Shown here in pieces: positions 6,635 to 40,466 of a stretch of 64,000 nucleotides of DNA (positions within the stretch are counted from its first letter, which is position 1; each line of letters starts with the position of its first letter). The notes beneath the pieces are model-generated. The model did not search any database. It saw only the letters and a list, made by a program, of their open reading frames with translations, and was not told the DNA's origin. The DNA comes from Melieria omissa. Taxonomy: Eukaryota > Arthropoda > Insecta > Diptera > Ulidiidae. The DNA lies in NCBI GenBank assembly GCA_963971225.1, contig OZ020267.1, positions 49,795,993 through 49,859,992 of the forward strand. Reading direction: 5' to 3'. Both the position numbers and the translations under genes were made by a program.

Positions 6635-6676
6635 TGTGCTGCAGTTTAGCGCGGCCACTAGATTTTTGATGCTTAC
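6635..6676 (-). other. Candidate recursive-splice exon (42 nt) after ratchet point 3
   Basis: From the acceptor of the third ratchet point to a downstream ACA/GTAAGTA donor (GT at 6634-6633) is 42 nt, a multiple of three. Cryptic downstream donors that help define the ratchet acceptor by exon definition are known for recursive splice sites. Here the regenerated GTAAGC competes with the downstream GTAAGT. If included, the first codons read from the ratchet GTA in phase 0 are VSIKNLVAALNCST without a stop. Inclusion in mRNA is inference. Confidence 0.4.
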
Positions 6677-6706
6677 CTGAAACAGAAAAGAAGAAAGAAA
6701 ATCAAT
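6671..6706 (-). other. Ratchet point 3 (zero-nucleotide exon)
   Basis: The minus strand reads CTTTTCTGTTTCAG/GTAAGC, with more pyrimidines upstream (ATTTTCTTTCTT) and TTATTGAT as a possible branch region. Acceptor AG is at 6678-6677 and GT at 6676-6675. It lies 12.3 kb after the second ratchet point. A second consensus donor follows 42 nt later, so the acceptor could also define a short cryptic exon. Confidence 0.85.
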
Positions 6707-8515
6707 AAATCTTGAAAAAATTGCCAAGCTTTAAAAATTTATAAAAATTTAATGGGTTTGTTGGTAATTTGAATGAACGTGTATCGATAAGGGGTCCGAA
6801 GTTCTAAACCATTAAAAAGTGCAAAACTGATAACAAATTTTACTAACTAAGGTGAAGAAGAGCAGGACCAGAGAGACGCTCACTTGCGACTCCCTTCCCG
6901 AAAGAGCTCAGAAACATTGCAACCATAGAGATCAGATTAGAAAGATTGTACATTTCCTGGATCTCACAAAGTAGTTTACAATACCAGCCAATATCAACAC
7001 AAATAAGGATGTGCCACCAAAACGGCACTTTAGTAACCATTCAACTAACCAACCATATCACCTAAGAAATGAAAATTATTACAACAGTTTCATACACTTA
7101 CAGGTGCGGATTTCTTGATCCTTTTTAGGATTCTGAAAATATTAAATTAAAGACAAAAGAAACTTCGCTGCAATTTTTGTTGATTGTGAATTGCTTGAGT
7201 AATGTAAATTTAAATGATGAGTATACTTTTTCACTTTAATTAAACAATTTTTAATTCATTTTTAAGCTGAACCACAAAGCCTTTTAAAACAAAATGCCAA
7301 AAATAAGTTCAAGTCATGTGCTTGATGTGGAGTCGTAAAGATGAAGTCTTCCCTGACAATTCAAAAAAAGTCTTACGTGACATGTGAAACAGTATTGAAT
7401 TTTGATTTAAAAATTCATATTCTTTGCAGCTTTATATTGTAAAAAAAAATGTCTGTAACGAAGTACGAGTTTCTGTTGGCATTGAGTTGGAAAATGCCAG
7501 CGATTGTAGAATTGCTAAGGGATATGGCAACATTTTATTTTGCTTTCGAATTCGTCTTAAATACTTGAACGAAAAAGTTAAAAGTAGAAAAATCCATTTA
7601 AAGAATTTCAAAAGTTTAAATAAAATCTTTGTGTTATTTTTGACTTATTTTTGCTATATGTGGTTTCTAGCATTAAAATCTATGTAGAACTCCAAACTTT
7701 GTGAGTTTGCTCTTAACTCGTGCCATCGTATGTTCTAATCTCTTTACATGCTTCATATATGCTTTAATTTCTTCAATCGGGAATTATTTCACATCAATAA
7801 AAAGCAAATTTTAGGAAAACACTCCAGGCGTGAAGAAGCATTGAAACGGCTTAATATATATTTTTCATTTAACGATTCAGACTACTTCAGTTCACTGTAC
7901 ACTAAACACTAACAAAACATTTTCATGCACTTTTAATGCATTAGTTTTAGTAACTTCTGACAACTTTTCATTTAATTTACTTTTGGTTTTGTGAATAATT
8001 TTGTTTTCTGACGCAATTGTCAGTGCACTCGGTTATATAGTATATGTATGCAATTTCGAGCTGCTGAAAATTTCTGGCGAAACAGTTGTAAGAACATTTG
8101 AGCTGTTAGCCTTAATGATCGAGCGCTGTGAAGTGCCGTCAGCTTAATTAACTTAATAACAGACAGTCAGACATTTTTACACCAACACAAAAAACTGTAA
8201 AACCAGCGACAGCAACAACAATGACAACTATAGTCGCAGTCGTGTGATTAATCACAACAAAAATAAATAAATAAATCGACGAATTTAAAGGGTTAATGAC
8301 ATTTACAAACTTCAACACTTGAAAATGAGTTGACTTGCAAGTGGTCAGCGGACGCCTGCGAGCGATGAATCGGAGGCAGAAGCTGGAGTGGAATGATTGT
8401 TCAAGTCGTGAAACAATTAAATGAAGATTTTTAATAATTTAAGATCGTCTGATTTGGTAGTTAAATATCTCACGATCGCCACTATGGCGAACAGCGGATT
8501 TATGACACATTGGTG

Positions 8516-8569
8516 TGACGTCAGCGGATGAAAGAAAATCCCATTAACGGCGGCCTGGAACTGACGTCA
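8516..8569. promoter_or_regulatory. Two perfect CRE palindromes
   Basis: TGACGTCA at 8516-8523 and again at 8562-8569, 46 bp apart. This is the consensus for CREB/ATF-type bZIP factors. They lie about 70 bp ahead of a TATA-like stretch on the plus strand. The sites are seen directly; function as an enhancer or promoter is inference. Confidence 0.5.
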
Positions 8570-8634
8570 CATCTTTGAGTAGTGCCAACATATATTCATA
8601 TATACATACATATAGCTATATATGCACATAAGCA

Positions 8635-8645
8635 CTATATATAAA
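8635..8645 (+). promoter_or_regulatory. Weak TATA-like sequence downstream of the CRE pair
   Basis: CTATATATAAA followed by CG-containing sequence, and about 30 bp later TTTAGTT as a poor initiator match. It sits at the end of an AT dinucleotide-rich tract, so a chance match is quite possible. Confidence 0.2.
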
Positions 8646-11600
8646 CGTACAGATGCGAAAAGTCCTTTGCATTTAGTTAAAATTCATCTACTCCAAGGGT
8701 GCTTCGGTGCGTTGGCACCGGCGCGTTTAGGACGTGGGCAGATGAGTTTGCCATTTAGCTAGTTGAAATTCATGCAAAGTCATTAATTCCCAGCGTCACC
8801 AAGAGTTGGCATTGACATTGACATGATTTCACGGCGACGACCTTTCGCCGCCCGCGGCCCACTCGCCGCACACTCGGCGAAATCGGCAACCGTCACACGC
8901 ACTGGCACTCGTGCCGTCAGCATACGGGCAATTCGGTAGACCACCAACATGCTAACACAAGTTCGAGTACCCAACCGTCAATACAACGGTGCAACACACA
9001 CCCACCCACTGGCGGCGAGCGGCGCCCACGCGTCGAAACAACAGCAACAAGCTTCTGCTGCCAGTCATAAAAAACAACTGCACAGTGGCGAAGACAACGG
9101 CAAAAAAGCCAAAACCGAAACGAATACGAAACAAATTATTTGCACCGAAATTATTTAGCCCAGACGCACACCCAGCCCCACACACACACAAACAGCACAG
9201 GCCGTGGTGAGTCACAAAGAGGCACTCACCGGCAGACTGAATACACAAAAACAAATGTGAAAGGAAACACAAAAGCAAAAAAAACAATCCTAAGTAGCGG
9301 CTGCGATTGCGGCTGGTAGAACGCCCGAAAGTAGGCTAAAAATGCCAACCAAAGTCAACGCAATGAGGCACATTAACCTTTTTCGAGCAGACGCAGGGGG
9401 CGACGCAGTAGAGAGCGACCTCAAAGTCGTTGTACGTGCGGGTTACGCACATTTTTCGCCCGGCCGTCGGACCCACACTCGTCGGCTCTGTAGCGGAGCG
9501 TCGGCCGCTTGGTAACGAGAATGTGTTTGTCAATGCGTGGTGCACGTTTTGCGGCATTCACGAATTATGGCCCAGGCGAGCCAGTGCAAAGCCCTGATAC
9601 AAGCGGCAAGGGGAATTACATAAATGCAGAGCAAACAATTCAATTGGCAGGTTCGTGCTGCCGGTTGTATCGGTACATTTTGACTTTCTGAGCTCGGTTG
9701 TCTGCAGTGCGGCAGACGGCGGCGGATGGAGCAAGCGACTGACATTGACCTCGGCTGGAGAGAAAGTTCAACGTTTCTGCATGTCGGCATTGCCAAATGG
9801 CTGAGAATGAGGATCAGTAGATTACTGTCCTCTCAGGCGAGCTTTGTATGTTGTATTTGTAAGTATATGTATATATGTCTAGTAATTTTGGATCCCATAT
9901 TCATAGGCGACTTTTATCGTAAGACGAGCATAGGAGAATATAAACGTATGACGAAAAAGCCAAGTTAAATATTAAAAGTAAGTGTCAATGCCTTATTTGC
10001 TTTTACATTTCTTTTTGATTGTGAAAATTCACACTGCTCTTGTTTTCACTGTTTGCTTTTGAGGCGGTGGCCGTGGTTGCTGTTGTAAGCATTGTTGCCG
10101 TTTCTGCAAGGATAACAAGTTGACTGAACTTGCCGGCATTTGTTGTATGACGGTGGTTGTTGGCGCCATACACCGAAGCTATGCCCAAACGCAATGAAAA
10201 TATGGTTTATTTATGTAAAACTGCTAAAAGCGTCTAGACGGTTGAAGGTCATTTCGCAACGAGGCAAATGAACCAAAGGATGAACGAGCATTTGAAGGAA
10301 CGTATCACAGTAATGCAATTTTTGCGTTTAATGTTTCCAACGTTTTGTGATTTGATTTGATTAAAAAGCAAAGAAGCCACTTCACTGATATGGTGATGTC
10401 AGACATATGTTTGACAGAGAATTTAGAATAAAGATAAAATGAATAAGAAGTGTTTAGAAATATTTTTTCCTGGCCATAAACTTCAGATATTCGATTTAAT
10501 CAGAATATTGAAGAATATTTTTAGGCCCAGTGAGAAAATGTTTAAAGACAAATTGTTGAAGTCAATTCGGAATTTGCGTATTCAGTGTCCGGCAGCGGTT
10601 TCACTGACTTAGAACAGGCCAGATGCAACCAGAGACATTTTTATGTTTGAAAATGTTTTTCGGTTTTTTTTACATTGTCACTGTTAACTTACAGCTAAAT
10701 ATATAAATATATATGTGAATTGTGCTCTAAAATTTTATATCACTTGTTTTCTGGTATCATTGTCGACTGAACTGTAATGTTTACGAATTAAATCAAACAA
10801 CAATCGGAATGCTGCGTCATCACTTTCATTCGGCAACACGCAAATGCGAATCACATGGAATTACGGCGAAAATTTTCAAACGTGACTAATGTGGACTTTA
10901 AAAAAAAATTTCAAAAATAAACCAAATTACTATAAAAATAGACCAACAATTTTAAAATAGAATTGAATTACATACTCCATAGCGACATACAACGAGCACG
11001 GCTAATGTGCATAAATGATGAAAATTGTGAGAACGGGGTGAGGGGGTGTTCGTTGTGATTACACTACTCTTCGCCAGCGTCACCCGGAACCAGCAGCAGC
11101 AGCAGTAGCGGCAGCGCAGCTGTGCGAGCGACCGGCACAGTGCAATGGCCGGCGCGGAACTCGTTTTAATTTTATACAATTTTCGGTCGTTGCCCAATAT
11201 TTGAACTTATTTAGTAAGTTTAATTTATTTCATCGGATCGACAGCGAACGTGCGCCCAAAAATGACAACAACAAGTATAACAATTGAACTTAATGCAAAA
11301 CACAAATGCATATCAATTAAACTCAATTAAAATTCAATTCAATTTAAAGTTATTTATTACAAGTCAATGGAAAAAGATTTTCACTGACCAGCCTTAAAAT
11401 GCATTTCAATAAGCAGGATTTGCAGAACCGGAAACGCATGACCCGAGTCATATTGGACAGTTTCGCTTAGTTTTCTCCTGCGATAGGTGAAACTGCGGAC
11501 AGAGTTGGTTTGGTGATGGGCCACCTACCAGTGGCTGAACTCATGGGAGGCGAAGGTATTTGAAACACCGTAAATCAGTGGGATCAGTGTACTATGAACA

Positions 11601-14600
11601 GCTTGAGGGGGATAATAATTCCTTAAATCATTTATGTACTTAAATCGGGTTAGAGTATATTAGTGAGATCGAGACGAATGATTTCGTTAATTTCTCTTCC
11701 GGTACGTTTCAAGCAGTAAATTAATAAGAAGAGCATAAGTACTGTCGTACAGGTTTGAAGGCCTTATTTCGGAATCGAAGTGAACGGAAATGCATGCAAT
11801 GGAATAATTCTTGCTAGATCGCAACAACACACAACTTAAATTCTGAAATGTGCTAAGTTTGTCACGTCGTGAACACATTCAGGAAAATACGAAACTGTCT
11901 TCGTCGCGGCTTCTTGTGATTAGCACTCAGTGTTCAAGAGGTGCATTCAGCGGGCGCGGTTCGGGCTTGCGTTAATAGTTCATTCAAACAAGATGCATAT
12001 GCCAACAACAATATCGCCAGTATGAACAACAATAATAATAATAACGACGCCGACAGCAGCAATAAAATCTGACATTGTTGGTGGGGGCTGGCGGCAGTGA
12101 CAGTGACAGTGTCAATGGCAACGACAACAGCCCTCGCAAAGCACCGCTGAAATGAACGACCTTGGTGACAATGACCCCAAACATTTACACCCGCTCACAC
12201 ACAAACACACTTGCGCGCAGTGAAGCGCATAGGTAGACCGCGAGGTGTCTCTTTGTTTGCGACAAAATACTGGTTGGCTTGATTTATTTTCAATTTTTAT
12301 TGCCGCCACTGTGGTTGTTGCTAATGCTGATAAGATACGAGTAGAACAGGGAAAACTTCAAGTGCGCAAATTGAATGAACGTTAATATTGTTGTTGTTAT
12401 TGACTGGCTATTGCCGTTCGGCTGTCTAGTAAGTTTGACATGCGCCGAGGCCACAGCCAAAGTTGTATTTTTTGTGGAAAAATATTAATCTCGGAATTGC
12501 CGTGCACACAATCGACTAAGCTGGCGTTAAGACAACTAATTCCAGCGCGGCTGACAAGTGATGGCAGAGGCGGAGTAGAGGGGCCGCCTTGTTGTTAGTT
12601 GAAAACAAAAAATCAAACAAACAAATATACAAAGCCCATATAGCTTTGTTTGTTTACACTCTAAAACTAAATTGGATTGCACAATTAATCATGTCGACAA
12701 ATTTCGTACGCTGCGTCCCCTCGCGCGCCGCTCTGTTGGTCAAAGTGTAACGTCAAGTGAATGAATGGAAGTAATGTAAACTACGCAATAATGTGAGGTT
12801 GACGCCTGATAAGCGGCGACAACGTGCGGATTTGAAAAGCAAAAAAACAACAATCACAACCAAATTTACAACACGACTTGTGCGCGCTTTCCACAAGGCT
12901 TTTCGCTATTGCAACTGTTGCTCCGATAACTGGAATGCAATGTTAACATGAATGAACATTTCAAAATCCTGGGCTCTTGGAGAGAGTTTAATAATTCTTT
13001 CGCAATGCGCCTAAAAGGATACTAGGCCAGGAGCGATTTACAAATCGCTTCATATATTGGCTCCCGAAGGTGAAAAACACATATAACAACACCAGGCGCA
13101 CCGACCACAGCCTGGAGAAGTGGTAATATGCCAACAACTAAACAGAATGCAATTTCCCACCGCATTGCACAGACCGCTGCTGCTTTGTGGGGACACTGAA
13201 TCGTTTGCGTGCAATTTGCGCGGGCCAAGGGATTTCCGGATTTTGAAGTTCACCCTTTGTTGCCTATTGTTGATTGCTTGCAGCTGCTGTTGTGTTGGTG
13301 CAGTGCGAATTGCACGGGTTTCTCTAGCTCTTTAGTTCTCTAGTTCCCCTCTTTAGGCTATATTCGTGCGTTCGGTTATTGACCTCCTATGCACTTCCTC
13401 AGCTGCAGCTTTGCTGTTGTCTCTCCTTGGCCGCATGTTTATGCGTTGGCATGTCGTGCAGGCTTGGTGTGGCGCCTCTACTAGTCGATTTATGTGGGGT
13501 CAGCGATGAGACTTGGAAAGTGATCGGTGAGCGTAGGTGCAATTGCCACCAACGGCCGTGTTACAATATACGCGGATGTACAGTTCGGATGGCTTCGGAT
13601 GTGTGTTTGTTGCCAGCTTATGCATCGTGTACGGTCCCCTTTTGCAGTCAAATTGAACTGGGTGTGAAAAAACTGGACCATTTCGATGGACTTGCCAACT
13701 GCCATTTGACAGAGGAGTGACGCACGATTTGCAAGAGGGGAGACTTTTCCTGTAGGAAAAAGGGGGACAGTTCACGAAATTAAATGCTGAAATTGCAATT
13801 TTTAGTGCAGTAACTACTCCATTGTTGCTGTTATTGTTATTACTATTGCAATTGCTTTTGTATAATCAGCGCCCAAAATGCGTCAATAACTTCAGGCAGC
13901 CGAGCCAATTAAAGTGGGCATTGGCCACTCGTCGAAGACCATAAACCCTCTGCAGTAGAACCTGATAAGTGGTCGCAGAGGCGACGGTCAAATGACACGA
14001 GTGATGGAGTGGTGCAAGTCAGTATTGTGCGAGCGGCACTAAAAGTGGAAGAACTTGAAAATTGCAGCCCGCCATAAATTTCTCTAATGCTGGCCGCTGT
14101 CGCAGACAATGGCGGTGTTGACTGCACTGACTGAAGTGGGGTTCAAATGGGCAATGACTTCGGGGCGACACTTGAAAGTCGCTGTGGATGAAGTGCAGTG
14201 GGTGTTGTTGAATTCACGTTTTGATGGCTCGTAGGCATTAAATGGTTACTGCATTTCGATAGCGCCATGAATCAACTGACCGAAAGACACTAATGTCCGC
14301 ACTGACCTGTACACGCGATTGTCATTGTGAAGCGTTGGGGGACATTATTTATCTCATCGTAAAGTTTATTGTAGCATTTAATTTAATTTTTTGGGAAACC
14401 AAAAGTAATTTAAAGTAACTCAAACCGAAAATTCACGGAATAGAGTCAACTATATTTTTGTGCAAAAATAGTTAAATAGCGCATTCTTGTTTGCTTCTGC
14501 TCTGGTGGAAATACACGCAAAATGTAATCATAAGATTAAGAGAACCAACCCTATGCACACATATGAATTTTTCATTTCGATTGTAAGTAGTACGACGTTT

Positions 14601-17600
14601 TAATGGTTTTCCTTTTTGCTCCCTTTTTCACCGACTTGTTCACTTCCTAATACTTCTGTGGCATGAACGTGTTTGTATTCTAATGGCGGCTGCAACTCAG
14701 TTGCATGTATCCGCGCGCTGCATTGGGTGACGGCTTGTTGATTTGTGTGGATTGGTGTGTCTGCCATTGAACGTTACGTTGTCCCTACTGGACTGCACTG
14801 CACAAGCAAGTCGGCAAATAATCCTTAGCAAAGGTTAAGGCACAGGATAACTGCAACACTTGTCATTATTGGGAGCTACGACGTTAACCGATTTTGTGTT
14901 GACGTTCTTTTCAAACCACGTATGAACGTCAGTTGCATGGCTGCTTGTTGCTATTGCTGCCGGTTCTACGATACGCTTTCATTGGCTGTCAAAGCCATAG
15001 AATCGCAACGGCGGCACCGAAGTCGGCGTAAATATGTTTGTTTGTTGTTGCCGTGAGTATATTCGGTTTTTTCTGTCATTTTCTATTGCTGGCTGCCTTG
15101 CAGTCAGCAGTCGCATGTGAACCAGTGAATTTCAGCTGCTGCAACAATTACTTCAATTCCAGTAAAACGTAATAAAACAACACCAACAATAATAACAATA
15201 ACAACATAAAAAGAGAATTGCATTGGGAGCATTGGCAGAGCCACATCTATCGCGCTCAATCCGAAAATGTGATAGTGTAACATACGCTTCCAGCTTCGCC
15301 GACAATAGCAGCAGTTGCGTTGGCTGCGGCGGCTGCGGCCGCAACTTGGAAAAATATGCGTAGTTAATGGCAAAGTAAAGTGGGGAGAAATTACGGGGTT
15401 TCATTGCTAGGCTCGCATTGCAGTCATGTTTGTTGTTGGAATTATATTGCAGCGTTAAAGAAGCGGCGGCAGCGATTGCATGCTGCAATATTCTCGCTGC
15501 AGGTAGTTGATTTAGCTTTAGTTTGATGTTTTTGTTTGTTTTTGTTATTGTTGTGGCGAATGAAAACGTTCGGTTTCCTTTTGTTGACTCCCTCCCGTCC
15601 CTCCATTCTCCACAACTGCAACATCACGTTGAGGCTTCGCCATTTGTTGCGTGTTTATTGTTTGTTTTACCGGCATTTTCGCTACCAACATTTGTGAAAT
15701 GGAAATGATTTTTGGTGGCCAATAGTCCATTGTTGTGACTGCAACTGCAACTGTCATTGTTGCCATATTGCGCCGTAGTGACTAAGATGCCTTTGGCAAT
15801 GAAAAGCGAATGAAGTCTTATAACAGTCGGAGGATTTCGGAGTTGGGATAGGAAAGATATTCAAATACATGACTTGGCCAGTATTGAGAAGTTGTTTAAA
15901 ATTTAAACACCTTAATCTTTAATTTGTTCTTTGATGAATTGTTTCATTCATGATTTGATACTCATAAGTCCATCTGCTGCTGCTTCGGATTCTGCTTGAA
16001 ACTATTTGGTCACTTACTGGCATCAATACTGGTGCACTGCTTCGTCTGTGTGCGTGTGCTACCGACATTTGAATGAGTCGGCCAAGCAATGAGCCCGTGA
16101 CTAGTTCGGTCGTAGGCTGGAAGTAACTCAAATTTCATATTGGCACCGACCGTTGGCGCATAATGCGATGCGTAGACAATGCTCTGACGCATCGTTGAAG
16201 CACTCCGTCCACATCCGCCGCTCAGTCAAGCAGCCGAGCTGCGCAGCGTATGACTGCCATGCGGTAATGATCGCGTTGAAATGCGATGCGATGACGCATA
16301 CTAAGCGAGCGATAGCAGCAATAACCACAGCAATAATGAGCACAGCAAAAAATACCCACGCCGAAAAAAGTGCAACGGCGCTGAAATACGTTGACCTTCG
16401 CCAGAGCAGTGGTGTTGCGCTGCCGCTTCTCGGGACGAGCTCTTACACACTCGGTTAGATGCTCCATGGGACTCCAGGATGCTCCGCGACTCTGGACATC
16501 GCGCATATTATTTACGCTGATCTACGTAACGAGATATTGTAACTTGCCGGCCGGTAGAGCAGCCGACTTGCCTACCACTGTTTCGGACGTTTTCGGCACG
16601 AATGTCCAAGCACTACGAATTTGCAGCGGAAAACAAAAAGGCAAGAAGCCATCTAGAAAATGACTCAAAGGAGCACAAGAAATGAACAAGTAAGCAGCGT
16701 ACTGGCCACCGCTGTAGACCAGCCTACGTCACGATGGTGCAATTCAGGGAACTTGGGCGGAATGGCGTGGAGCGGCAGCGCGCGGGTGAAGATCAGGACG
16801 CCGACCGCCATAGTCGCACATGCTGGCGGGGTTGGGTGGCTAGCTGACTGGTTGGCTGGAGCAGTGGCTACGCGGAGCCATTGGACTCTCGGCGTCACTG
16901 TCCACAGCAGCGACGCAGACCCAGACCCCAAGAGCAGGCAGCACTTCAGCATCATCCAAGTGAACGAGTCTTTTGCGTTGATCGGTCATCCGATTGTTTT
17001 GCCTTTATTCTCATTTCTACTGTTGTCATGTTAGCAGCAACTTGAATCGTTTTACTCGTGGCAGGTTTTCATGCTCACAACCATACACACACCTACACGC
17101 ATTCTACATTCTACATTACTTAGCAGGGAAGACAATGTGGAAATACTTGGCCGATGAATAGTACATGCATAAGTACATATGTATATGCGTATATATATGT
17201 AGGTTCAAAAATGGAATTTTTCATTTGGTATGTACGCTTTTGCTTTGCACAACTCGAAAACTGACCACGACAATGAATTAAGTTTTAGCATACTAGATGG
17301 TATTGGACGGAAGAACACAAACAACATGGATTTACAAACTTATTACCATTCATGCATATAAATCGTATACACTGTATGCTTAGAGGATATTTCTCCTATC
17401 TTTCATTAGCTGAAGCCTTCGTTTATCTGATGTCTTTGAAGATTTTCTTTCATAGTTATCACAATTTTGAGATAATCTCAGGAGATTTTAAACATAAAAG
17501 AGCTAAAGAACTATGGTTTATTCATAACTAGAATATCTCTAGAATGAGGTATGATAGTAATGCTTTCATTCCTCGAGCCTTAGCTGAGTTAAATGCGCAG

Positions 17601-18728: not shown

Positions 18729-18744
18729 GTGTGTGTGTGTGTGT
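18729..18744. repeat. (GT)8 microsatellite
   Basis: Eight GT units, about 220 bp downstream in transcription (lower coordinates) of the second ratchet point. Confidence 0.9.
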
Positions 18745-18959
18745 GGCTCTGGGTACTTGTGCACTTGCTGACGGTGGATTTCAAGAGTTTGCTGCGACTT
18801 GGCAATAAAAATCTGCATTGCCTTTCAGGGATTTTTATTTGATTTTGTTTTATCGGTAAAAATTAAGTGCCGATTATGAAATCTAATCTGTGTACTTGCT
18901 CTCATTTCGCTATTCCGTTGAATAAGGTTCTGTGAAGAACATCGTTTGGCCATTATTAA

Positions 18960-18992
18960 ACTTACCTGAAAAGATAAAAGAGGAAAACAATT
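18960..18992 (-). other. Ratchet point 2 (zero-nucleotide exon)
   Basis: The minus strand reads TTTTATCTTTTCAG/GTAAGT, preceded by TTGTTTTCCTC. Acceptor AG is at 18967-18966 and GT at 18965-18964; the six-base donor is a perfect consensus. It lies about 21.5 kb after the first ratchet point, on the same strand as the coding exons. No strong second donor is obvious just downstream, unlike the site at 6676. Confidence 0.85.
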
Positions 18993-26896: not shown

Positions 26897-26944
26897 ATGT
26901 TTATTGAATAAATACGCACACCAGAGTATTTATTCAATAAACAT
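26897..26944. repeat. Perfect 19-bp inverted repeat with AATAAA in both arms
   Basis: ATGTTTATTGAATAAATAC, a 10-base loop (GCACACCAGA), and the exact reverse complement. AATAAA occurs in both arms, so a poly(A) signal is present on either strand within a strong hairpin. No flanking terminal repeat or target duplication was seen. It could be a bidirectional 3'-end signal or a chance AT-rich hairpin. Confidence 0.85.
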
Positions 26945-28110: not shown

Positions 28111-28112
28111 TA

Positions 28113-29740: not shown

Positions 29741-29742
29741 TA

Positions 29743-30725
29743 CATACAAAAATAAACTGAGCCTCGTAATCGGCGTCAAGCAGTCTACACTGAAAGTGAG
29801 GTGGCACGTTGCAGTTGTGGCGCACTCGTCAATATTTCTATACAAACTATACAAATTGCACACACACACACACACACAGCTGCAAATATGTGTTGTGTTG
29901 TATGTATGAATAATTAAGTTAACAACAGCCAAGCGGGCACCAATAACTACAACAACGCAAGTGGTAATGGGGAGCTAAAAAGTGGACGCCGCTGCGGGCG
30001 GTGGACGGTCTGAGAAGATTCTGACTCTGACTTTTTCAAACGCGGTGGAAAGCTCAAGTGGAAAAGCGAATGCGTAAAGCAACAACAACAAAAAAAACGT
30101 GAAGCAAAACAACGAGTGAAGGATAGAGCGAAAATTAACCGAGTTTCCATTGAAATTGATATTTGCTGCCCGCTTTGCGGTCGTACAAACGTCATTACAT
30201 TTGTTGTAGTTGTTGCTGTTGGCATTAGTGGCGTTAATTTCATATGGTTTATTACACACGATTCACATAGGCAGTCGGTATCGCTGCTGCACTTGGTGGA
30301 AATGACTCATTGTTTCGACTGATTTCACGACAATTTCCCATTCGAAAGAAAATGCTGCTCGTGTTTCGCGGGAATTGTCGTTTTTGCCGATTCTGGCACA
30401 TTGTTGCATGAACGGACTTTCGCTTTTAATGGAAATACCTTGTTTGGCACATTCCCGGAAATACTCTGAGTGGGAAGAGGGGAGCTGCGCTAGTTATAGC
30501 GTGGAAATCCCTCGACGATTTGGTGAGAAAACGAGGTTCATAGAATTTCGAAAAAATCGAAAATTACTTTAATTATTTGTAACTTTAATAACTGATTAAA
30601 TGCTTTTAAATGGTTGATTAACCTGGAACAAATTTACGCCGCAGCCAATTCACTGCATTCAAGATTTGCATATATGTAATTGAGTTCAATTGAAATTTTC
30701 ACAGCCTAAAGAAAGGATAAACAAT
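29743..30725. other. Gene-free intronic sequence between Tc1 and hAT elements
   Basis: About 1 kb with the (CA)10 repeat and CAA runs. No gene or transposon recognised. Confidence 0.5.
29859..29878. repeat. (CA)10 microsatellite
   Basis: Ten CA units about 120 bp right of the Tc1 element. Confidence 0.9.
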
Positions 30726-30744
30726 GTATGTACTAGGCATCGCA

Positions 30745-30776
30745 ATCCCGGGATCCCGGGATCCCGGGATCCCGGA
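30745..30776. repeat. Tandem ATCCCGGG octamer, four units
   Basis: Four head-to-tail copies of ATCCCGGG (last base of the fourth is A) just inside the left end of the hAT relic. Each unit is nearly self-complementary. Related motifs occur at about 30794, 30887, 31522 and 31541-31580. Confidence 0.9.
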
Positions 30777-30787
30777 CTTTTTCCAGA

Positions 30788-30961
30788 ATTTTAATCCCGG
30801 GATTTTCGTGATTGCTAAAGATGCTTCAAAGTTCAAATGAAATAAATTTAAATGCACAAAAACCCAATCCTAATTAAAGGATTTTAATCCCGGGATTTTC
30901 GGGATTGCAAAAGACGCTTCAAAGTTCAAATGAAATAAATTTAAAGGCACAAAAACCCAAT
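30788..30961. repeat. Two 81-bp direct repeats inside the hAT relic
   Basis: Units 30788-30868 and 30881-30961, period 93 bp. Each begins ATTTTAATCCCGGGATTTTC and ends near CACAAAAACCCAAT, with few mismatches. An internal duplication in the subterminal region of the element. Confidence 0.85.
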
Positions 30962-30989
30962 TCCCTATTTGAGAGAGGAGGAAGGGGAT

Positions 30990-31142
30990 AGAGGGCGTCT
31001 TTTGCAAAAGGCTTATGATTATTTACTAAGCATTCAACCAACAAGTGTTGAATCTGAAGGTGGTTTCTCTTCAGCAGGGTTTATTTGCAATAAATTTCGC
31101 TCTAGATTAGAGGACAAAACACTTAATGCCTTTGTATTTTAA
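30990..31142 (+). pseudogene. hAT transposase C-terminal fragment
   Basis: An open stretch of 50 codons ending TAA at 31140-31142. It includes YDYLLSIQPTSVESEGGFSS, then AGFICNKFRSRLEDKTLNAF. This matches the hAT dimerisation domain pattern (PTSVESER-FS-AG, then RSRL, then L). The usual ER after VES is replaced by EG. No start codon or catalytic domain remains, so it is the tail of a deleted transposase gene. Confidence 0.87.
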
Positions 31143-31618
31143 AGATCTCAGTTTTTAGTTAATCAAAACGATGAAATTTTTTATCGAAATAATCGAAGTA
31201 AAACTAAAAGTACAAACAAATTCACTTTTTTTATTTTCTTGTTATCAAATATGCATATATGCACTTTCTGATACATCTGTTCCAAAACAATAAGTTATGT
31301 TTAAGTGTCATTTTTGGATAAAACAAAATGTTATCAAACTGCAGTTAAATGTTAAATGAAAAACTTGTAAATTTAACAAAATGTGATTAAATTCAAGATC
31401 AAAAATCTTAAAATTACCCCAACTTAGATTAAACTGTGTCCATTTTTATGGTAAATATATTATAAACAAGTATTTATGCAATTTGGGAAAATTGTTTTGT
31501 TAAAAAAATTTGTTACATGAATCCCGGGATTAAGTCCCGGGATCCCGGGATTTTACTTTTCAATCCCGAAAATCCCGGGATCGCAAAATGGCAAAAAATT
31601 GCGATCCCTAGTATGTAC

Positions 31619-34600
31619 GTACCCAAGTGATCTTTGAATCTATGTGTTTAATTCGAAGTAAGCGGCTTAGAAGAACACAACACAGAATCACACACTTACG
31701 AACACGGATTGCGGAAAGGCAAAGCTCTAATCTGCCAAGAGGTGTTATTGCATTGATATCAATTTGTAAATCCATTCAACCATTCAACAAGAGCGGCGAA
31801 AAGCTAACAACTGAAATAATATTTTGCTGCTGCTGTTGTTATTGTTAAGTGGCTAAAAGGCTAATTTCTGCATCATTAATTTCAACTGCAAAAATATTGG
31901 CGTCGATTCGCGTACTGATGATGGCATTACACGCCGTGATTTGACGTTTCCATGTCAAAATAAACTTGTCGAAATTAATTGGAAACATTGTCGACAAATC
32001 GAAAGTCATGCACACATACACACACACACTGAAATTTACTTGCATATCCAGGTCGGTGCAAATAAATAAAAAAAAACTGCACGTATCCGGACCGCATGCG
32101 GAGCGGTCCAACGAAACGAAACAAGATAAAGTTTATTATATGAAAAGGTCATTTGATAGTCGAACAGTCATTAACGATGGCAAAATTGTTGGAAGCTTGT
32201 TAGCTGTTTTTTGACTGTTACCCTCATATCAGAAAAGAGTTCACGTCACACATTTTCAGTTCCATTGGACATCGCGGAGTGGACCAAATCGCTGGCTAGG
32301 CGTTAGTGCTCCAAGCCATCCGCCGTTGACGCATGCAAATAACTTTCACATAAAGTAAAAATTATTTAAAAGTTAATGAAAGAGTGTTGCTGTAGAAAGG
32401 CAGTGAACGCGGACGAGGTTGTGAAAAGAAAACAAAAACTCCACTCCTTTTTATGAGCCACCTTGCGGTGACTACAGTTTGGTATATGTGTATTCTCCTA
32501 ATGTCTGGTGTTGTTGTTGTTATAGCTGTTGCTGCTGACGTTACGTCGATGCCAATGTTTCGGGACCGCCACAAGATGAATGAGGCCAGTAAATTTGCCG
32601 AAAAATTACTCGTTAAATATGAGAAAAAAGAAGACGAAGAAGAAGCAGCAACAGCAGCAGACATTGCATATTCATGGAGCATTGACAAGTGCGGTCTGCC
32701 TGTTGCTCCAACTTCGATTGCTCCACCTTGGATCGGTTGCTGCTGCTGTTGCTAATATTGTTAGTGCTGCTTTTATAATTAGTTGCCGGCGTCATAGTTG
32801 TCGCTTTTGCGCCATTGTTTTTTACTTTTGCGTGTAGTTTATTTTGGCTGCTTGTCTCAATAATAATTTGTCTTTTTCTCTATCTACTTGTTTCTACACT
32901 CTTATACACATATTTTCGTCAGTACTAAATTAAAAATTAAAGCGCATTGACGATCTGTTCACTAATATTTCGTTGCTTCTTTTTTTTGCCGAGTGCAAAT
33001 TAGCCGCTTCCAAATGGCATTGTGCGATGTGTTTTTTCGTGAAACATTCAAGGCCAAAGTCATGCTGCTGCTATTTGGCTTTGTTGTTGTTGGTGGTGGT
33101 TGTTTGGAGATTCATTAGCATCATATCTGTGTATGTTTGCTTTTGCGTCTTGCAAGTCAGTGTGTATTGTTGTTGTTGCTGTTGTATTTTATTTTACTTT
33201 ATTACTTTTTTCATTATTTACTGTTGCAGTTTTTGGTGAATTTGTTTTCACTATGTTGGGTATTCTTTGCTGTCTAATTTCGCGCTCAGCCAGACAGAAA
33301 TTTCGGCGCTGATATTGCGTGTTTATGGTTTGAAGCCACACTTTGTGATTTGCTGGTTTGTATTTATGACAGTTCCAAAAACACGACCCGCCGACCCCAG
33401 TCTATAAATATTTATGAATGTGCAATGTACACACTACTATACAGCTACATACATACATTTAAGCATAAGCAAGATTTTTTCTGAGCAATGTGGTTTTGAG
33501 GTTTCGCATCTCCCGGTGACTTTCGATCAATGCTTTCTTATATTATTTGACTGAACCGTGTTCCGATGTTTTATGTTCGGTTTGTCAATCTGCAAGTGTA
33601 TCAGTCTATCCGTGGTACTCTGTCCGAAGTCAAATCCGAATAGCCCTTTGAAGATCAATTTAAATTCTCTGGGAATTGTTTAATTTGTGTTGCCGATTCG
33701 TGTTAAGTTTGTGTACTTTTCTCAATAAAAGTTTTTTGAAAATATTTATTTTTGTACTCGTCTGAAAGGTTCTGTGCAGAAAGTTGCTATACCGGTTGTG
33801 AGGATGACAGCAGATCTACATATGTATGCATACTAAGTATATACATATATTTTGTCTTTGTGTAGGCTAAATTCTTGTTTAGATTAAAATGATTCTACTT
33901 GTCTGCAACTTTATACAAATAAAAGATTTCCAAAGCTTACGAATCAACTTCATCAATTGGGTACATTTGATTAATTGCCTTGCCATTGGATCTATTGACA
34001 CTATCTTTATTTATTTCAACCAAATATTTTAAGGATATTTTAACACTCGAAATAAGAATTTATAAGAAGTGCTAAACACATTTTTAACATTTCTAACATC
34101 AAATGCACCAACCATTGAGCTACGGCTGTCGTTTATTGCCAAATTTTCAACAACTTTGAGTTCATAGTGCCCAGATGTTTTTGTCTATCTAGTAAAAGCG
34201 ATTTCAAAATAAAACTATGCAGCCCACAGCGCAAATCACAGCACTTAGCACTTCAGCACGAATCTGCGTCGGCAACAATGAAGAGTGCAAACGTGGATAC
34301 TTGCAGCGTGAGTTGTTGCCATTTCGACGAGGTGCTTGATTCGCTTGCGATTCGCTGCTCAATTCTTCGCCAAGTAATCCACTTGGCCATTGCACACTCG
34401 AGCAGCTGCCGGCAAGTATGCGATGGAACGAGTATCTGGTAGATAATTTTTGGCACTCTCGGCGCGACGTCGGACGCAAATTGGCTGATTGCAAAACGTT
34501 CAAGGTCGCCGAAATCGTTCGCAGCATTTGTTCATTGCCAAAATTCTTATTAAATATGCTCGACAACGACGACTGCAGCCAACGTCAACCAACCGAAGCG

Positions 34601-37600
34601 GCAAAAACACACAAAACGCAAAAACGCAGAAAATTGGTAAGAAGAAATAAAATTAAATAAGCGTCTGTGTTGTTGTTGTTAAATGCGCATATATTTGCTT
34701 CATTTTGTGATTTGTTTTGCTTGTTGCTTAAATAGCCAAACGACAACAACAACGGCCACAAAAAGTACAACGTCGACTACAAAGTGGAAAAATAAAAAAA
34801 AAAAAAAATATTAAACTGGCATGAAATGAGAGATAATGATAAATTATGCAGCGAAATAAAATTAAATAGAATCGAATAAAGCAAATCGTAAGAAATTAAG
34901 CAAAAAAATTGAAATGAAATGGCAAATATCGCTTATAAGTAATAATACAACATAGCAACGACACCAACAACAACCACCACCAACAAAGGTAAGTGTATTT
35001 TATTTAGCAAATTAACTAAATGTTCTTTGAAAACAAAAACAATCCGCAACAATCAAAACAAGAAATAAACACTTAAATAAACAATAAAACAGCCAAAACA
35101 ACAACAATGAGAACAAAAAACTCCAAAAGCCGGTAGTGAATGTCGTCGCTGTGCCGATGTGTTTGTTTGTACGTTCGACACTGTCGATTGCGCGGATGAC
35201 GTGATGCCAAATACAAACAAAAAAGCTAAACAACGACAACAACAGCAATAGCAATACAAATAAAAAGCTTGCAATTGAAGCAAAAAGCAGCGAGCAGAGT
35301 TCGAGCAGCGAACCGGCAAAGAAAAACAATGTACGAGGAATTAAACAAATGCAAAAGTCATTAAAATATTGAAGTAAGAAATGCTTCTAATAAGCGCATT
35401 TAATGAAATTGACTGTGAAATCACTAAGCGAAATGCTGTATTATTGTTTCTTGATTCCCGCGATTTGAATTGATTAAGAGTGGCCCATGAATTCGTTTTG
35501 TCTGTGCCACAATGTACCGTTAGTGAATAGTCCCTGAACTTGGCGCGTTCAAATCAGGTGCTATCCACAATTGCTATCTCCGAAACAGTGACTTCTTGGT
35601 TTTGTATGCTTTATAAGTTGACATAACGTAAACATTGGCGGTATTCACGAGTTGATGGAATGAGCATTTCAGCAGAGCAGAATCGATAAACTAATCAACG
35701 ATTTTTAGATAGCTGAAAGCTAATATGTATTTACTTTTAAACTGGCCCAGGGTTGTATTTGGGTTTGGCATAAGTAAGTACCTTAAAAATCAACTCAAGC
35801 TTTTTAGTGAGTTGAGTTGCCGGTTGTTGTGAAACTTGTATCCATCATTATTTTATAAAAATCTAATTTTAAGAAATATGCAATCATGTTCAGTGCGCAA
35901 AATCTCTCGCGATTGACTTTCAAGCATGGAATATATATTATAGACAGTTATATCTGAGGGAAAGTCGAGCAACGGCTAAGTATTCCATTGTAGACAAGAG
36001 GCGACAATAGGGAAAGGTGGGAGGTGAGAGGAATGAAACAAGTAAGATAGATATGGCCACTGAGAGAGAGAAAAGAATGGTCTAGGAATGAAACGTTTTC
36101 AACGTGTTTGAGCCGGATATGTTACTCTGTATTCAATATTTGTATCTTCCTAATAAGGGCAAACTTGTCATTGTACGCTTTCATAGATCATGAATACCGC
36201 TACTAACTTTTCTTGATTTCTGTTTTAATTACCAAATACAGTTGTAGACGTTGTAAAGAAACATAACATTAATCAATACTCGTATAAGCATGCATATTTA
36301 TTTTAATTGACTTTTCTATAGATAAGACTAGAAAACGATTTTTCGGAATATGATTGCAAACTAAATTCGCTTGGATTTGAAGTTGTTTGCAGCAAAAATT
36401 CGAAATAGAATTTGCAAGTTAGTACTTTTAGCCATAATATTCTTTTGTTATTGCGGCTTTGAAAGACGTTTCTATATTGAAAAGGAAGACATTTCGAATA
36501 AAGAATTCATTGACCTCTTTTCCAATAGTGCTAAAAACAACAACGAACGCACGAACGGAAATAAAGCCGAGTAAACAAATGAGTGCAGCTGAAATTGAAA
36601 TTATTCAATTGAAGGCGCGTTGCAGAAAGTACACGAGCGAAGTTTTAAATGCGCGAAAACTGTGCAGGAAAGAAAAATGCGAAAACTGCAAAATGTAATA
36701 ATTAAACTCGCAAGTGAAATTATGCGTACAGCTCAATATTTAAATGCATATGCCGACTTGGCTGCAGCAACAACAATAACAACTGCTGCTGCTGCTATTA
36801 ATATCTCTGTGTGCACAAATGTGCTGTAAACGTTAACAAAAGTGACAAAATCAACAACAACAACAAAAGTGACAAACAAGAGAAATGAATGACCGAACGG
36901 TTGAATACCCGAAAATTAGCCGGCCGGCTGGTCGGCCGGTGGGATTGGCCTGGAAACAACGAAAGCGCTAAAGAACCTTCAAAGCGGCACTGAATGCTTT
37001 AAATAGAACTTCGTTTTCTTTGCATTTATTTATTTGTTTTGGTTTTTGTTATTTTTTTTTTAACGCAAATCCCGAAAACGATCAAATATAAAAATACGTT
37101 AAATAAATAAATAAATAAATGCGCACAAAAACGTGATGAGCTGAGTGGAGATTTTTTTTTATTGCTGTCATACTCCGCGATGTTGTTGTTGCTGTATGTA
37201 CAATGAACCGTTATACAATATGCAGATTGTGAGTGGCTACGTCGAGGCCGAAAAGCGAGCGACGAGTCTTTATGGAGTGCCGACGAATTGGCGGAAGCAA
37301 CAGGCAAACTCTGGGAAGAAGTCGAGCTCGACGAAAAATGATGGGAAAGGCAATAAGTTGAACTGGCCAATGCGATGGTGGATGACAATTTGTCACGTCC
37401 AGCAGCTGTTGTAGCATCACTCCTTTCGCGGCCAACTTCTGCACACGCTCGTTATGCAAGCAGCAGTGCTTCGCCCCTTTCTGGGAGAGGCAGCCGGGGC
37501 TACCGCTCAAAAATCACCAATTTAACATCCCAAATGAATGCACATTCAATTTGGGATTCATAGTAACGACGACAAAAAATGTGACGGGAAAAAAATCAAA

Positions 37601-39503
37601 CAAAAAGAAGAGTGGCAGAGCTGGCGCAGCTACGGCGAGGGGGAAGTGCGGCTGAAACGCTGCCGTTTCTAATGATGTTGACGTATTGCTGCGCGTATTG
37701 TATGCTGATCCGCCTGTTTGGTTGGCTTTTGAATGACTGGTTGTGGCCGCAGCTGCTGGCCAGCGTCTTACGCTGTATGGGTGTATGTGTGTGTGGTCGT
37801 GTGTGTGGCTCAGCATCGCATTGTGGGCTACCGCTTTGTTCTATTTGGCACCGTCGGCGATCTGCTGCCATCAATTTCCGCACTCGCTCACCCGCTGCGC
37901 GTATCTTGTCAACAGCGTCAGCTTCAGCGTCAGCGGCAGTTGTCGCGTTGCGCTGCGACATTCACTCAAAGCGCATACGAACAGTATTCTGTGTTTTCGT
38001 TTTTTCCACTTTTGTTTTTTTTTTATAAATAGTTGCGATTTTAAAATTTATGAGCATTTTTTTGTTGTTATTGCCGCGGTTGCTGTTTATTTGTTGTAGG
38101 TGTTGTTTGTTGTTGGCTTGCTTCAACACGCCATAGAAAATGTATATGTGTGCTTGTGTGTGCGGCTATGTTTTATGGCTCCGGATCGGCGCACCGCCGG
38201 CCCCCCCGCGCTCCATACACCTTTACTTGGGGCGCAGCGGTGCAGAGGCGTGCAAGCGGTCGTACGGATGTTGGATCGCTGCGCGCGGCGAGCCAATGAC
38301 CGCTAGAATGCAATCAACCTAGTCCAAGGTCAAGTGCTCGGCGTTCGCGTCAGCGTCAGCGTCAGTGGCAGTGACAGTGGCAGCGTCAGCGGAATTAAAT
38401 AGGTGCGCGTATGTGTGCATGCAGCGAGCAAGCGAGCGGGCGAGCGACTGTCGCTCAGTGTGCAAGTGTGCAGTCTTAGATGTGCGCGCGTGTGTGCGTG
38501 CATGCGAGCAGCGTTGTTAGCGACTTATTAGCAGGAATGCGGCAAACACCAAACACCGACCGATCTGAGTATAGCCAAGCGACAAAAAATAAATAATAAG
38601 AGACAAATGAATTGCCCAACAAAATTTCAGCGCGGAATAGAAAACAATATCAACGGGGCTGAGCCATTGGCACTGGTGCTAGCCGTGGCACTGGCATTGG
38701 GATTGGCGATGGCTTAGGAGTGAGAATAGGTGAGTGCGTTCATTATTTGTTTGGCAGTTTGCGTTTTGATTTAACATTTCCTGCAGTCGTTTGTCGTGCC
38801 AACCATTCGAACGAATTGCTGGCGGCTGGCTCACGCTGGGGTGTTTGTCCGAGAGCACGGAAATTAAAAATCGACTCATCGCAAGACTTTGTTCACCTTG
38901 TGATCTATTGGCATTCTAGGAGCCGGTGGAGCGGCAAAAGGGGACGGGAGTACTGCTCGACTACGCAATCAGTTGACATTGTTTGAGCAGCAATGACATT
39001 GAAAGTGCTTCGAACTTTTATCACAGATGCTTAAGTAAACCGAGTGCAGTAAAATGTAAAATTTCCGACAGAGGTGCAGCGAATGCATTCACTACGAGGC
39101 TTGTGAACAAACAAATTTTTAAGTATCGACATAAAATAAAATTTTCTTATTAAACATTTTTAATGTTAGTATTTGATTTTACAGTTGCTTTACATTGGCA
39201 GAAATATTGAAAATAAATGTTGAAGTAAGCCGGATATGGGAAGGAGAGGGACATGGTTGTGGTGTGGTATTGGCAACAAATACTTATGCACTGAACTGAC
39301 TCAACACAAGTTTTCTAATGTAATGTTTGCTCTGCAAGCAAATCTCTGTTGAGGCTCAAACTTATTGAAGATCCAAAATGTTAAGGGACTCTTTTTTACA
39401 AAGGGAGTTTTTTAGATCAAAGTGATCCCAGGGTATTTCTATTAAATCCTTACTCTAACATAATTTTAAATTTAATGTTATAGTAGAGCTTTTAGTAGAG
39501 CAC
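31619..39503. other. Gene-free intronic sequence
   Basis: Includes TTG-rich tracts at 32.5-33.2 kb, the possible plus-strand leader at 34.6-35.0 kb, a poly-A run near 34796-34809, CCGGCCGG motifs near 36.92 kb, and a GC-richer stretch at 37.2-38.7 kb with GCGTCA repeats near 38.35 kb and a plus-strand GTGAGTG donor-like site near 38730. No supported gene. Confidence 0.45.
34600..34988 (+). other. Possible plus-strand leader ending in a strong donor
   Basis: A CAA- and AAATAAA-rich stretch ends with AACAAAG/GTAAGTG at 34988/34989, a near-consensus 5' splice site on the plus strand. A second weaker one (TTG/GTAAGA) is at 34636. No matching acceptor, promoter or protein was identified, so a nested or antisense transcript is only a possibility. 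Confidence 0.15.
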
Positions 39504-40074
39504 TTTTATTCCACATTAAAAATTTCTTTATATGTTATTGTACATAGTTTTGAGTACTGAACAACATTTATTTTATACATTTTCGTTTATATCCGGGGGA
39601 GATATGGGCAACCGGAAGACGCCATTTTGAAACGCTGGCTTACACGATTACGGCCGATCTACTGCACCGATTTGCTTAAACTTTTTTTTTATATTTTCAG
39701 AAAAGGTTTGGCTATCGCGTGAACTACCATCATTATTGTCCATTTCTATGTAACAACGTTATGAAACAATTATTAACAAAAAACAAGCAAAACAAGAGGA
39801 AAAAACTTTACAATTGCACTAAATGTTTATTTATTAATAGTTTTTTACAGTTATAGTTCAAACGAGAGCCATTCATTTGTACTTCAAAATGAAATTTGTT
39901 TGGTATGTTTCAGATCATCCAAAATGGAGAAATCGTTTCAGCCAGATTTCAAAATGGCGTCTTCCGGTCGCCCATATCTCCCCCGGATATAAAAGAAAAT
40001 TTATAAAAAAATGTTGTTCAGTATTTAAAACTATCTACAATAACATATAAAAAAATTTTTAATGTGGAATAAAA
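39504..40074. mobile_element. Fold-back element with about 145-bp inverted arms
   Basis: Left arm 39504-39650 and right arm 39931-40074 are inverted copies with few mismatches. Both contain ATCCGGGGGAGATATGGGC and, next to it, CGGAAGACGCCATTTTGAAA. The 280-bp centre is AT-rich and non-coding. No target-site duplication is visible at the arm ends. It fits a fold-back or long-TIR MITE of unknown family. The right end lies about 370 bp from a ratchet point. Confidence 0.82.
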
Positions 40075-40439
40075 ATTTGTATGAAAAAAATTACTTAAAA
40101 ATATGGTCGATTCTACCTGACTACCCCCTTCAGCATTTTCCTCCCCAGTGCGGATTTTCAAATATAATAAGAGAACGTTTTAGTGGGTCAAAGTCCCACG
40201 TATTGGTAGTTGTTGGTTTTCACATCACAAAGAAAACACTTGCTACAAGTTCACGTGGCAAGGCAATAATTTTTCGTGGGTTCTCTGGGGTTTGGTTATT
40301 CTTAGTATTGCATGGATTTATTTGTTTGACTGTGATTCATGAGGGTTGTTCAAACTTACGTAAACATCAGACAGCACGTTGCATAATTTATATCATTCGC
40401 AATTTTCTCTTTTCGTTAACCTTTGCAAAAGCGAATTGT

Positions 40440-40466
40440 ACTCACCTGAAAGAGAAGAAGATAAAT
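40440..40466 (-). other. Ratchet point 1 in transcription order (zero-nucleotide exon)
   Basis: On the minus strand the sequence reads TTCTTCTCTTTCAG/GTGAGT: a pyrimidine tract and CAG acceptor fused to a full 5' splice site, with no exon between. AG is at 40447-40446 and GT at 40445-40444. An AT-rich stretch upstream could hold the branch point. Such 3'/5' splice-site fusions in long introns are the known signature of recursive splicing in flies. It lies 12.8 kb downstream of the coding exon, in the gap between a fold-back element (ends 40074) and a small hAT-like MITE (starts 40749). Confidence 0.82.

Follow-up and report, generated by a model that had tools for sequence, protein, structure and literature searches.

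Recursive splicing is a known mechanism in flies. The closest described systems are the intronic ratchet points (zero-nucleotide exons) of Drosophila, for example those in Ubx, kuz, Bx and Ten-m. In these sites, a pyrimidine tract and acceptor are fused directly to a donor, YAG/GTRAGY (the slash marks the junction), on the sense strand only. According to the available text of one study, a high-confidence recursive site is present in 63% of fly introns longer than 40 kb and a medium-confidence one in a further 7%, and the recursive pieces are typically about 9-15 kb (PMC6110457). In another, as far as its available part goes, large fruit-fly introns contain 2.196 RP-sites per 100 kb as compared with 0.101 on the complementary strand, and RP-sites are predicted to be enriched in the large introns of mosquito, bee and beetle (PMC2773006). 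Some ratchet points carry an expressed RS-exon, such as m1 and m2 of Ubx. The available text of PMC8605326 describes Ubx m1 as ultraconserved. It expects, from donor competition, that the donor of the RP is stronger than that of the RS-exon, and it reports a recursion test in which mutation of the RP GT alone in a minigene changed skipping into full exon inclusion.

Here we describe three sites of this type in a window of 64,000 nucleotides (the whole stretch of DNA analysed) from the fly Melieria omissa. They resemble the Drosophila ratchet points in their fused motif and in their restriction to the sense strand. In addition, the intron exceeds 40 kb, its pieces are 12-21 kb and the regenerated donors are stronger than the downstream donors found. 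In contrast to the Drosophila examples, this fly is a non-drosophilid and the use of the sites is deduced from sequence. Their density, three in 58.5 kb on the sense strand and none on the antisense strand, can be set against the fruit-fly values above; one piece, 21.5 kb, is longer than is typical.

Results

The giant intron belongs to a Glut4EF orthologue

Judged from its predicted protein, the gene is an orthologue of Glut4EF (ZNF395/704-like). The 580-aa gene model is phase-consistent, and its relatives carry the names Glut4EF, ZNF395 or ZNF704. The top protein match showed 75% identity over the 245 residues searched, and the peptide of exons 2-3 was 73% identical to that of Anastrepha and 69% identical to that of Ceratitis. 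As in the family of D. melanogaster Glut4EF and ZNF395-ZNF704, the model contains the zinc finger PRKK(K/R)/.NKSRF.CTW and ends in the C-clamp CRKVYGM...WCTQCRWKKAC.RFGD. In a protein tree, the source fly was placed beside, and outside, four tephritids. The orthologue is an ordinary one, with a protein that showed no unusual features. Two results count against the assignment: Pfam recognised no families in the 580-aa model, and the DUF4772 part known in relatives had no match anywhere in 264 kb. Rfam gave no matches within the window.

The features are listed in Table 1. The upstream exon of intron 3 ends with PRKKK and has a donor of 12.7 bits. The zinc-finger exon begins with ANKSRF, and the 3' end of the intron lies 5.3 kb past the left edge of the window.

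Table 1. Features of the giant intron and its surroundings (window coordinates unless stated).
Feature	Position	Strand	Remarks
Coding exon 2, Glut4EF orthologue	53534..53664	-	131 nt; phase-consistent model and protein identity
Coding exon 3, upstream exon of giant intron	53246..53463	-	218 nt; ends in phase 0, AAGAAG/GTAAGT at 53246/53245
Intron 3, part inside window	1..53245	-	full length 58,529 nt
Ratchet point 1 (RP1), pyrimidine tract + CAG/GTGAGT	40440..40466	-	junction 40446/40445; rank 2/1100
Candidate cryptic RS-exon of RP1	40360..40445	-	86 nt, a length not divisible by 3; contains an in-frame stop
Ratchet point 2 (RP2), pyrimidine tract + CAG/GTAAGT	18960..18986	-	junction 18966/18965; rank 1/1100
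Ratchet point 3 (RP3), pyrimidine tract + CAG/GTAAGC	6671..6697	-	junction 6677/6676; rank 3/1100
Candidate expressed RS-exon of RP3	6635..6676	-	42 nt; in frame, open; peptide VSIKNLVAALNCST
Exon 4, zinc-finger exon, phase 0	-5284 to -5381; genome G000:C1:49790611-49790708	-	phase-consistent model

Three fused acceptor-donor sites divide the intron

An earlier sequence-only reading had proposed three CAG/GT fusions on the minus strand, which is the coding strand. Direct reading of the letters confirmed all of them: ...cttcttctctttcag/GTGAGT at 40445, ...cctcttttatcttttcag/GTAAGT at 18965 and ...cttcttttctgtttcag/GTAAGC at 6676. The tract contains 14 pyrimidines in 15 positions at each of RP1, RP2 and RP3. 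Only two other YAG/GTRAGY sites with at least 9/15 pyrimidines were present in 264 kb; each had 9/15 and both lie outside the window.

The three points cut the intron into pieces of 12,800, 21,480, 12,289 and 11,960 nt. The first three agree with the 12.8, 21.5 and 12.3 kb given by the earlier reading; the fourth reaches the acceptor of exon 4 and thus ends outside the window. The spacing is fairly even, the probability being 0.006 for a shortest piece of at least 11,960 nt and 0.099 for a longest piece of at most 21,480 nt. Behind the AAG of the exon, the regenerated donors would be AAG/GTGAGT (RP1, 12.5 bits), AAG/GTAAGT (RP2, 12.7 bits) and AAG/GTAAGC (RP3, 10.6 bits), near the native value of 12.7 bits, which fits recursive splicing. 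With YTNAY as the branch-point pattern, matches (TTTAT or TTGAT) were found 17-32 nt upstream of RP1 and RP3. For RP2, there was no YTNAY match 11-70 nt upstream, and the only one was TTTAT at 10 nt, a point against the recursive interpretation.

The three sites outrank all others in 264 kb

AG/GT sites were scored with a PWM whose frequencies are approximate. Among 1100 sites on both strands of 264 kb, the three RPs took ranks 1-3 with 24.9 (RP2), 23.7 (RP1) and 21.95 bits (RP3), and the next site had 17.1 bits. The sense strand of intron 3 contains 89 AG/GT, of which the RPs are the top three, followed by 11.2 bits; the antisense strand contains 116 with a maximum of 11.3 bits. On the plus strand, where the earlier reading had seen no comparable fusion, nothing in 264 kb exceeded 13.6 bits, in agreement with that statement. 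When 20 sequences of 264 kb were simulated with a first-order Markov model, the highest score was 19.94 bits, so that none reached 20. From the score distributions of acceptors and donors in this region, combined as if independent, the probability per AG/GT of at least 21.95 bits was 1.07e-5, and that of at least 3 of 89 was 1.4e-10.

A stricter fixed pattern, YYYYYYYYNYAGGTRAGY, had the 40445 site as its sole match in the window (0.02 expected) and no match in 21 other loci. RP2 and RP3 each have one purine among the 8 tract positions demanded by this pattern. Thus, three of three sites are recovered by the graded score and one of three by the fixed pattern.

Candidates for a fourth ratchet point were rejected. 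The best further sense-strand sites upstream in the gene, 101636 (GTGTGT, 17.1 bits) and 73860 (GTACAT, 15.3 bits), are too weak, and another sense-strand site, at -113890 (15.6 bits), is located well past the last exon that was found.

Candidate RS-exons lie behind RP1 and RP3

The candidate exon of RP1 would end at the donor TAC/GTAAGT (40359, 7.0 bits) and that of RP3 at ACA/GTAAGT (6634, 7.1 bits). As donor competition expects, the RP donors are stronger: 12.5 versus 7.0 bits at RP1 and 10.6 versus 7.1 bits at RP3. The predicted exon of RP3 is open and in frame, starts with GT and ends at a donor. Another donor 366 nt downstream of RP3 has 7.2 bits, and the resulting frame holds a stop. 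Behind RP2, no convincing donor was found within 400 nt; the best, at 237 nt, has 3.7 bits and an in-frame stop. This is a weak spot of the recursive interpretation, as the exon-definition model calls for a donor downstream of each RP.

A protein search with the joined RP3 peptide gave 4 matches; its 29 candidates spanned about 140-446 aa, a size range outside which the full-length relatives lie. The peptide was contained in none of the 179 proteins compared. Its similarity ranked 10/351 against the Drosophila junction peptides (weak), 154/351 against the tephritid ones (no resemblance) and 26/351 against both. The similarity of the RP3 peptide to the exons of relatives is not significant.

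Protein models of other flies contain extra residues at the same junction

The junction of exons 3 and 4 was classed by script; 131 of 179 proteins fitted the pattern and 48 were dropped. Nine, from other flies, had an insert, 51 had the direct junction and 71 were classed as running off. The last class includes 51 proteins that begin with VS and 14 that, by eye, are misclassed zinc-finger or shorter forms. Seven of the nine inserts begin with VS, which is readable as GTRAGY; the others begin with LS (D. eugracilis) and ES (D. gunungcola). VS alone was rejected as proof of an RS-exon, because VS would equally result from read-through of the donor of exon 3. For the Drosophila exon this ambiguity is resolved, because LS and ES are incompatible with a GT donor. 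In these two species the first codon does not come from a GT donor, and therefore the exon cannot regenerate one there. For the tephritids, the ambiguity is resolved by model P0010 and A. ludens.

We also rejected the idea that the inserts are upstream extensions of exon 4, because their last residues, N, S, I, T or A, lack codons ending in AG. This exclusion assumes that the phase and exon 4 start of the window hold in the relatives; it covers the inserts of the tephritids, D. guanche, D. nasuta, D. eugracilis and D. gunungcola, and the Eupeodes insert stays ambiguous. The tephritid exon VSPFEV... had no recognisable counterpart in intron 3: the best-scoring segment reached 19.6 and lacked splice sites, and the antisense strand gave 22.0. 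Among the matches listed for the model tails from Anastrepha, Ceratitis, Glossina and Lucilia, none was worth following. The protein models point to an RS-type exon at the matching junction of relatives, although they do not assign it to any one RP.

Discussion

We consider it highly probable that intron 3 of Glut4EF is removed recursively, in four steps, via RP1-RP3. Recursive splicing is supported because the sites combine strand bias, motif strength, location in one giant intron whose ends and phase could be identified, fairly even spacing and regenerated donors near the native strength. The spliceosome would use the points in 5'-to-3' order. Exon 3 would join RP1 first, and the GTGAGT past the junction, now behind the AAG of the exon, would serve as a fresh donor. 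RP2 and then RP3 would repeat this acceptor-to-donor step, and finally the donor regenerated at RP3 would join exon 4. RP1 would presumably be recognised through its 86-nt RS-exon with a stop, and RP3 through its 42-nt open RS-exon.

Three other explanations were weighed. If the RPs were the acceptors of ordinary cassette exons starting with GTRAGY, the intron would otherwise leave as a single piece, and the GT would never act as a donor. The 42-nt stretch behind RP3, which is open, in frame and followed by a donor, would fit this, as would the extra junction residues in other flies and the LS and ES starts in D. eugracilis and D. gunungcola. However, the candidate exon of RP1 would shift the frame and contains a stop, and an exon-like donor is missing behind RP2. 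Moreover, consensus or near-consensus donors, which ordinary exons do not need, are fused to all three acceptors, and the chance of such a fusion is about 1e-5 per AG/GT. We therefore regard this explanation as very unlikely. A resemblance arising by chance, in sequence rich in AT and pyrimidines, might be suspected because AG/GT is plentiful in the long intron (89 sense, 116 antisense). Nevertheless, every antisense site of this intron falls short by more than 10 bits, none of the simulated sequences reached 20 bits, and three such sites among 89 are vanishingly rare; unless the PWM is grossly wrong, the score distribution already refutes a chance origin, and its probability is negligible.

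The points might also serve alternative first or last exons, with promoters or terminators within the intron, instead of stepwise removal. In the annotation of Anastrepha ludens, the gene is split at intron 3: P0001 and P0002 stop behind exon 3, each with a VS-led tail of its own, and P0104 starts ahead of exon 4. Similarly, a VSAM-type exon is the last one in D. kikkawai X2 (P0173). Gene-prediction splits at giant introns are, however, a common artefact, which counts against this explanation. Moreover, exon 3 is joined directly to the zinc finger in 51 of the 131 classed proteins, and terminal exons leave the strong donor directly behind each acceptor unexplained. We judge alternative ends to be highly improbable.

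The earlier reading also held that recursive splicing would leave no trace in mRNA. Its stepwise part is supported by motifs, strand, phase and spacing. The absence of a trace may fail for some isoforms, because relatives have extra in-frame residues and RP3 has an open 42-nt candidate exon. This in-frame stretch and the inserts of relatives are new as compared with that reading. Some transcripts may retain the 42-nt exon, which would place 14 further residues immediately ahead of the zinc finger. This candidate exon resembles Ubx m1 and m2 in lying behind an RP with a weaker downstream donor, and the models of other flies likewise hold in-frame residues at the matching junction. In contrast to the ultraconserved m1, the junction peptides vary greatly among relatives, and the exon of D. 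eugracilis and D. gunungcola no longer starts with GT.

Outside supplementary gene lists, our literature search found recursive splicing never named together with Glut4EF or with CG34360, which we take to be its D. melanogaster gene number; the D. melanogaster gene may be among the published supplementary lists of recursive sites. For tephritids, "recursive splicing" was absent among the matches listed. For a fly outside Drosophila, the locus is an unusually clean case in which three ratchet points can be recognised from sequence alone, and exact junctions can be predicted because the intron ends and phase could be identified. The protein models further suggest that the junction hosted expressed recursive-type exons in more than one lineage; if so, two-donor competition and its evolution are testable across flies.

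Tentatively, and with clearly less than even confidence, we propose that RP3 has a dual use: it may both step the intron out and allow retention of the 42-nt exon before the zinc finger. The recursive exon at this junction would then be old in flies with quick sequence turnover, and in some Drosophila its donor half would have decayed (VS to LS or ES), so that a formerly recursive exon would now be a plain cassette exon. If this is true, the locus is a natural series for the birth, expression and loss of recursive exons.

Three fused splice sites in a giant intron

Intron 3 of the Glut4EF orthologue lies between exon 3 and the zinc-finger exon 4 and is 58,529 nt long; its last 5.3 kb were outside the view of the sequence-only reading. 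That reading had placed three minus-strand CAG/GT fusions (candidate ratchet points RP1, RP2 and RP3) in the intron, and direct reading located all of them at the positions listed in the table. We scored splice sites with a PWM of approximate Drosophila-like frequencies over 264 contiguous kb without N (the window with 140 kb of flank to its left and 60 kb to its right) of the 490-Mb assembly. Among the 1100 AG/GT sites on both strands of this DNA, the three points took the first three ranks, and the fourth-ranked site scored 17.1 bits. This result depends on the graded score: a fixed strict pattern matches one of the three points in the window. The maximum in 20 Markov sequences of equal size was 19.94 bits. 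The earlier impression that the plus strand carries no comparable fusion was borne out, since the top plus-strand site in the 264 kb scored 13.6 bits and the antisense strand of intron 3 reached 11.3 bits at most. For three such fusions among 89 sense AG/GT sites, P = 1.4e-10, as calculated with the acceptor and donor scores of the region itself, whose distributions were assumed to be independent. The three fusions are genuine, and chance is a very poor explanation for them.

Features of the gene and its surroundings (window coordinates unless a contig is named; negative values lie left of the window and values above 64,000 right of it; RS-exon, short exon directly behind a ratchet point)
Feature	Position	Strand	Description
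Exon 3 end	53246/53245		AAGAAG/GTAAGT, coding gene
Intron 3	53245 to -5283		
RP1	40445	-	pyrimidine tract-CAG, then GTGAGT
RP1 candidate RS-exon			86 nt, stop inside; donor 7.0 bits
RP2	18965	-	pyrimidine tract-CAG, then GTAAGT
RP3	6676	-	pyrimidine tract-CAG, then GTAAGC
RP3 candidate RS-exon			42 nt, open; donor 7.1 bits
Zinc-finger exon 4 start	-5284		preceded by TTTCATTTCAG
C-clamp exon	-11870		last exon found
Tc1/mariner-type transposase remnant	28594-29445	+	inside intron 3, opposite to the gene's strand
Multi-C2H2 zinc-finger coding stretch	G000:C1:49671137-49677881 (same contig)	+	
Multi-C2H2 zinc-finger coding stretch	about G000:C1:49672881-49673442	-	
Runner-up sense-strand fusion	101636	-	GTGTGT, 17.1 bits; outside the window

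Six exons gave a protein of 580 residues with consistent phase throughout. The first exon runs on upstream of the chosen methionine, and the 264 kb yielded no counterpart of the relatives' DUF4772 part; the full protein is therefore probably longer. Pfam returned no family for the 580-residue model. Among the best 120 of 226 protein matches, the annotated relatives come from flies and other insects, and their names, where given, are mostly glucose transporter 4 enhancer factor, ZNF395 or ZNF704. The top match was 75% over the 245 residues searched. In a tree of 21 rows, this fly adjoins four tephritids with support of 89/97, slightly short of the value at which the tool counts a branch as firm.

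Proposed stepwise removal of intron 3

Joining of exon 3 to a ratchet point would place the exon's AAG before the point's GT, and each regenerated junction would be a strong donor for the following step: the predicted donors score 12.5 (RP1), 12.7 (RP2) and 10.6 bits (RP3), against 12.7 bits for the native one. The four intron pieces measure 12,800, 21,480, 12,289 and 11,960 nt, the first three in agreement with the sizes of 12.8, 21.5 and 12.3 kb predicted earlier. The shortest piece exceeds the expectation for random placement (P = 0.006); the longest is unremarkable (P = 0.099).

Recursive splicing is known from long Drosophila introns, and the same process is proposed here. High-confidence recursive sites are reported in 63% of fly introns longer than 40 kb and medium-confidence sites in a further 7%, with pieces of typically about 9-15 kb (PMC6110457). 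Large fruit-fly introns hold 2.196 such sites per 100 kb, versus 0.101 for the complementary strand; mosquito, bee and beetle also show enrichment (PMC2773006). Short RS-exons follow the points, and their donors, as a rule the weaker ones, are outcompeted by the regenerated donor (PMC8605326). Behind RP3 there is a second downstream donor (7.2 bits at 366 nt, with a stop in between). The model is least secure around RP2: no downstream donor worth naming as an RS-exon end was found, nor a YTNAY branch-point match 11-70 nt upstream. From the extreme scores, the regenerated donors and the likeness to the Drosophila mechanism, we consider stepwise recursive splicing of intron 3, as first suggested by the sequence-only reading, very likely. 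Glut4EF and recursive splicing were not named together in the main texts searched; a supplementary gene list may already include the D. melanogaster orthologue.

Residues at the exon 3/4 junction in relatives

It had also been claimed that the process leaves no trace in mRNA. We surveyed this junction in 131 relatives' proteins that a script could class (protein sequences from database gene models). The claim may not be true of all isoforms: exon 3 directly joins the zinc finger in 51 of the 131 (Zeugodacus, Ceratitis and D. melanogaster among them), but nine have extra residues there. Seven of these inserts start with VS (Bactrocera latifrons, Bactrocera dorsalis, Rhagoletis pomonella, Eurosta solidaginis, Eupeodes corollae, Drosophila nasuta and D. 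guanche), one with LS (D. eugracilis) and one with ES (D. gunungcola). GTRAGY in this phase encodes V-S, for which other codons are also possible.

Read-through of exon 3's own donor likewise gives VS, as in 51 of the 71 models classed as run-off. As the source of the Drosophila insert, however, read-through is excluded by the LS and ES forms, which otherwise match the Drosophila exon (xS[AD]MKSI). For tephritids, the ambiguity is broken by two observations. The database protein P0010, whose exon 3 differs by one residue from that of B. latifrons and likewise from that of B. dorsalis, has VSTWR after exon 3 and then ends; it seems to retain intron 2. Anastrepha ludens has three distinct VS-led sequences, two following exon 3 and one preceding exon 4, and only one of them could be contiguous with exon 3. 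Together with a VSPF-type exon in five tephritid models, these forms indicate that relatives probably carry an expressed recursive-type exon at this junction. This possible exon is the part worth following. Comparison of the 42-nt frame behind RP3 with the relatives' exon gave no significant match. A protein search for the peptide of the candidate RP3 RS-exon found no carrier; there were four matches among 29 candidates of limited length.

The LS or ES residues of P0094 (D. eugracilis) and P0096 (D. gunungcola) suggest that the recursive donor was lost and the exon turned into an ordinary cassette exon. In the public annotation of A. ludens, Glut4EF seems to be divided at this intron into two genes: its proteins P0001, P0002 and P0104 go under the names "uncharacterized protein LOC128865346" and "myb-like protein Q", and the contigs concerned are equally long.

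Neighboring elements

The transposase remnant matches the Pfam families DDE_3 (E 6.6e-13) and HTH_Tnp_Tc3_2 (E 1.2e-12). The C2H2 cluster lies downstream of the gene, at window coordinates of about -118,000 to -125,000. The fused site at 101636 lies upstream of the coding exons found and may fall within a different long intron of this gene.
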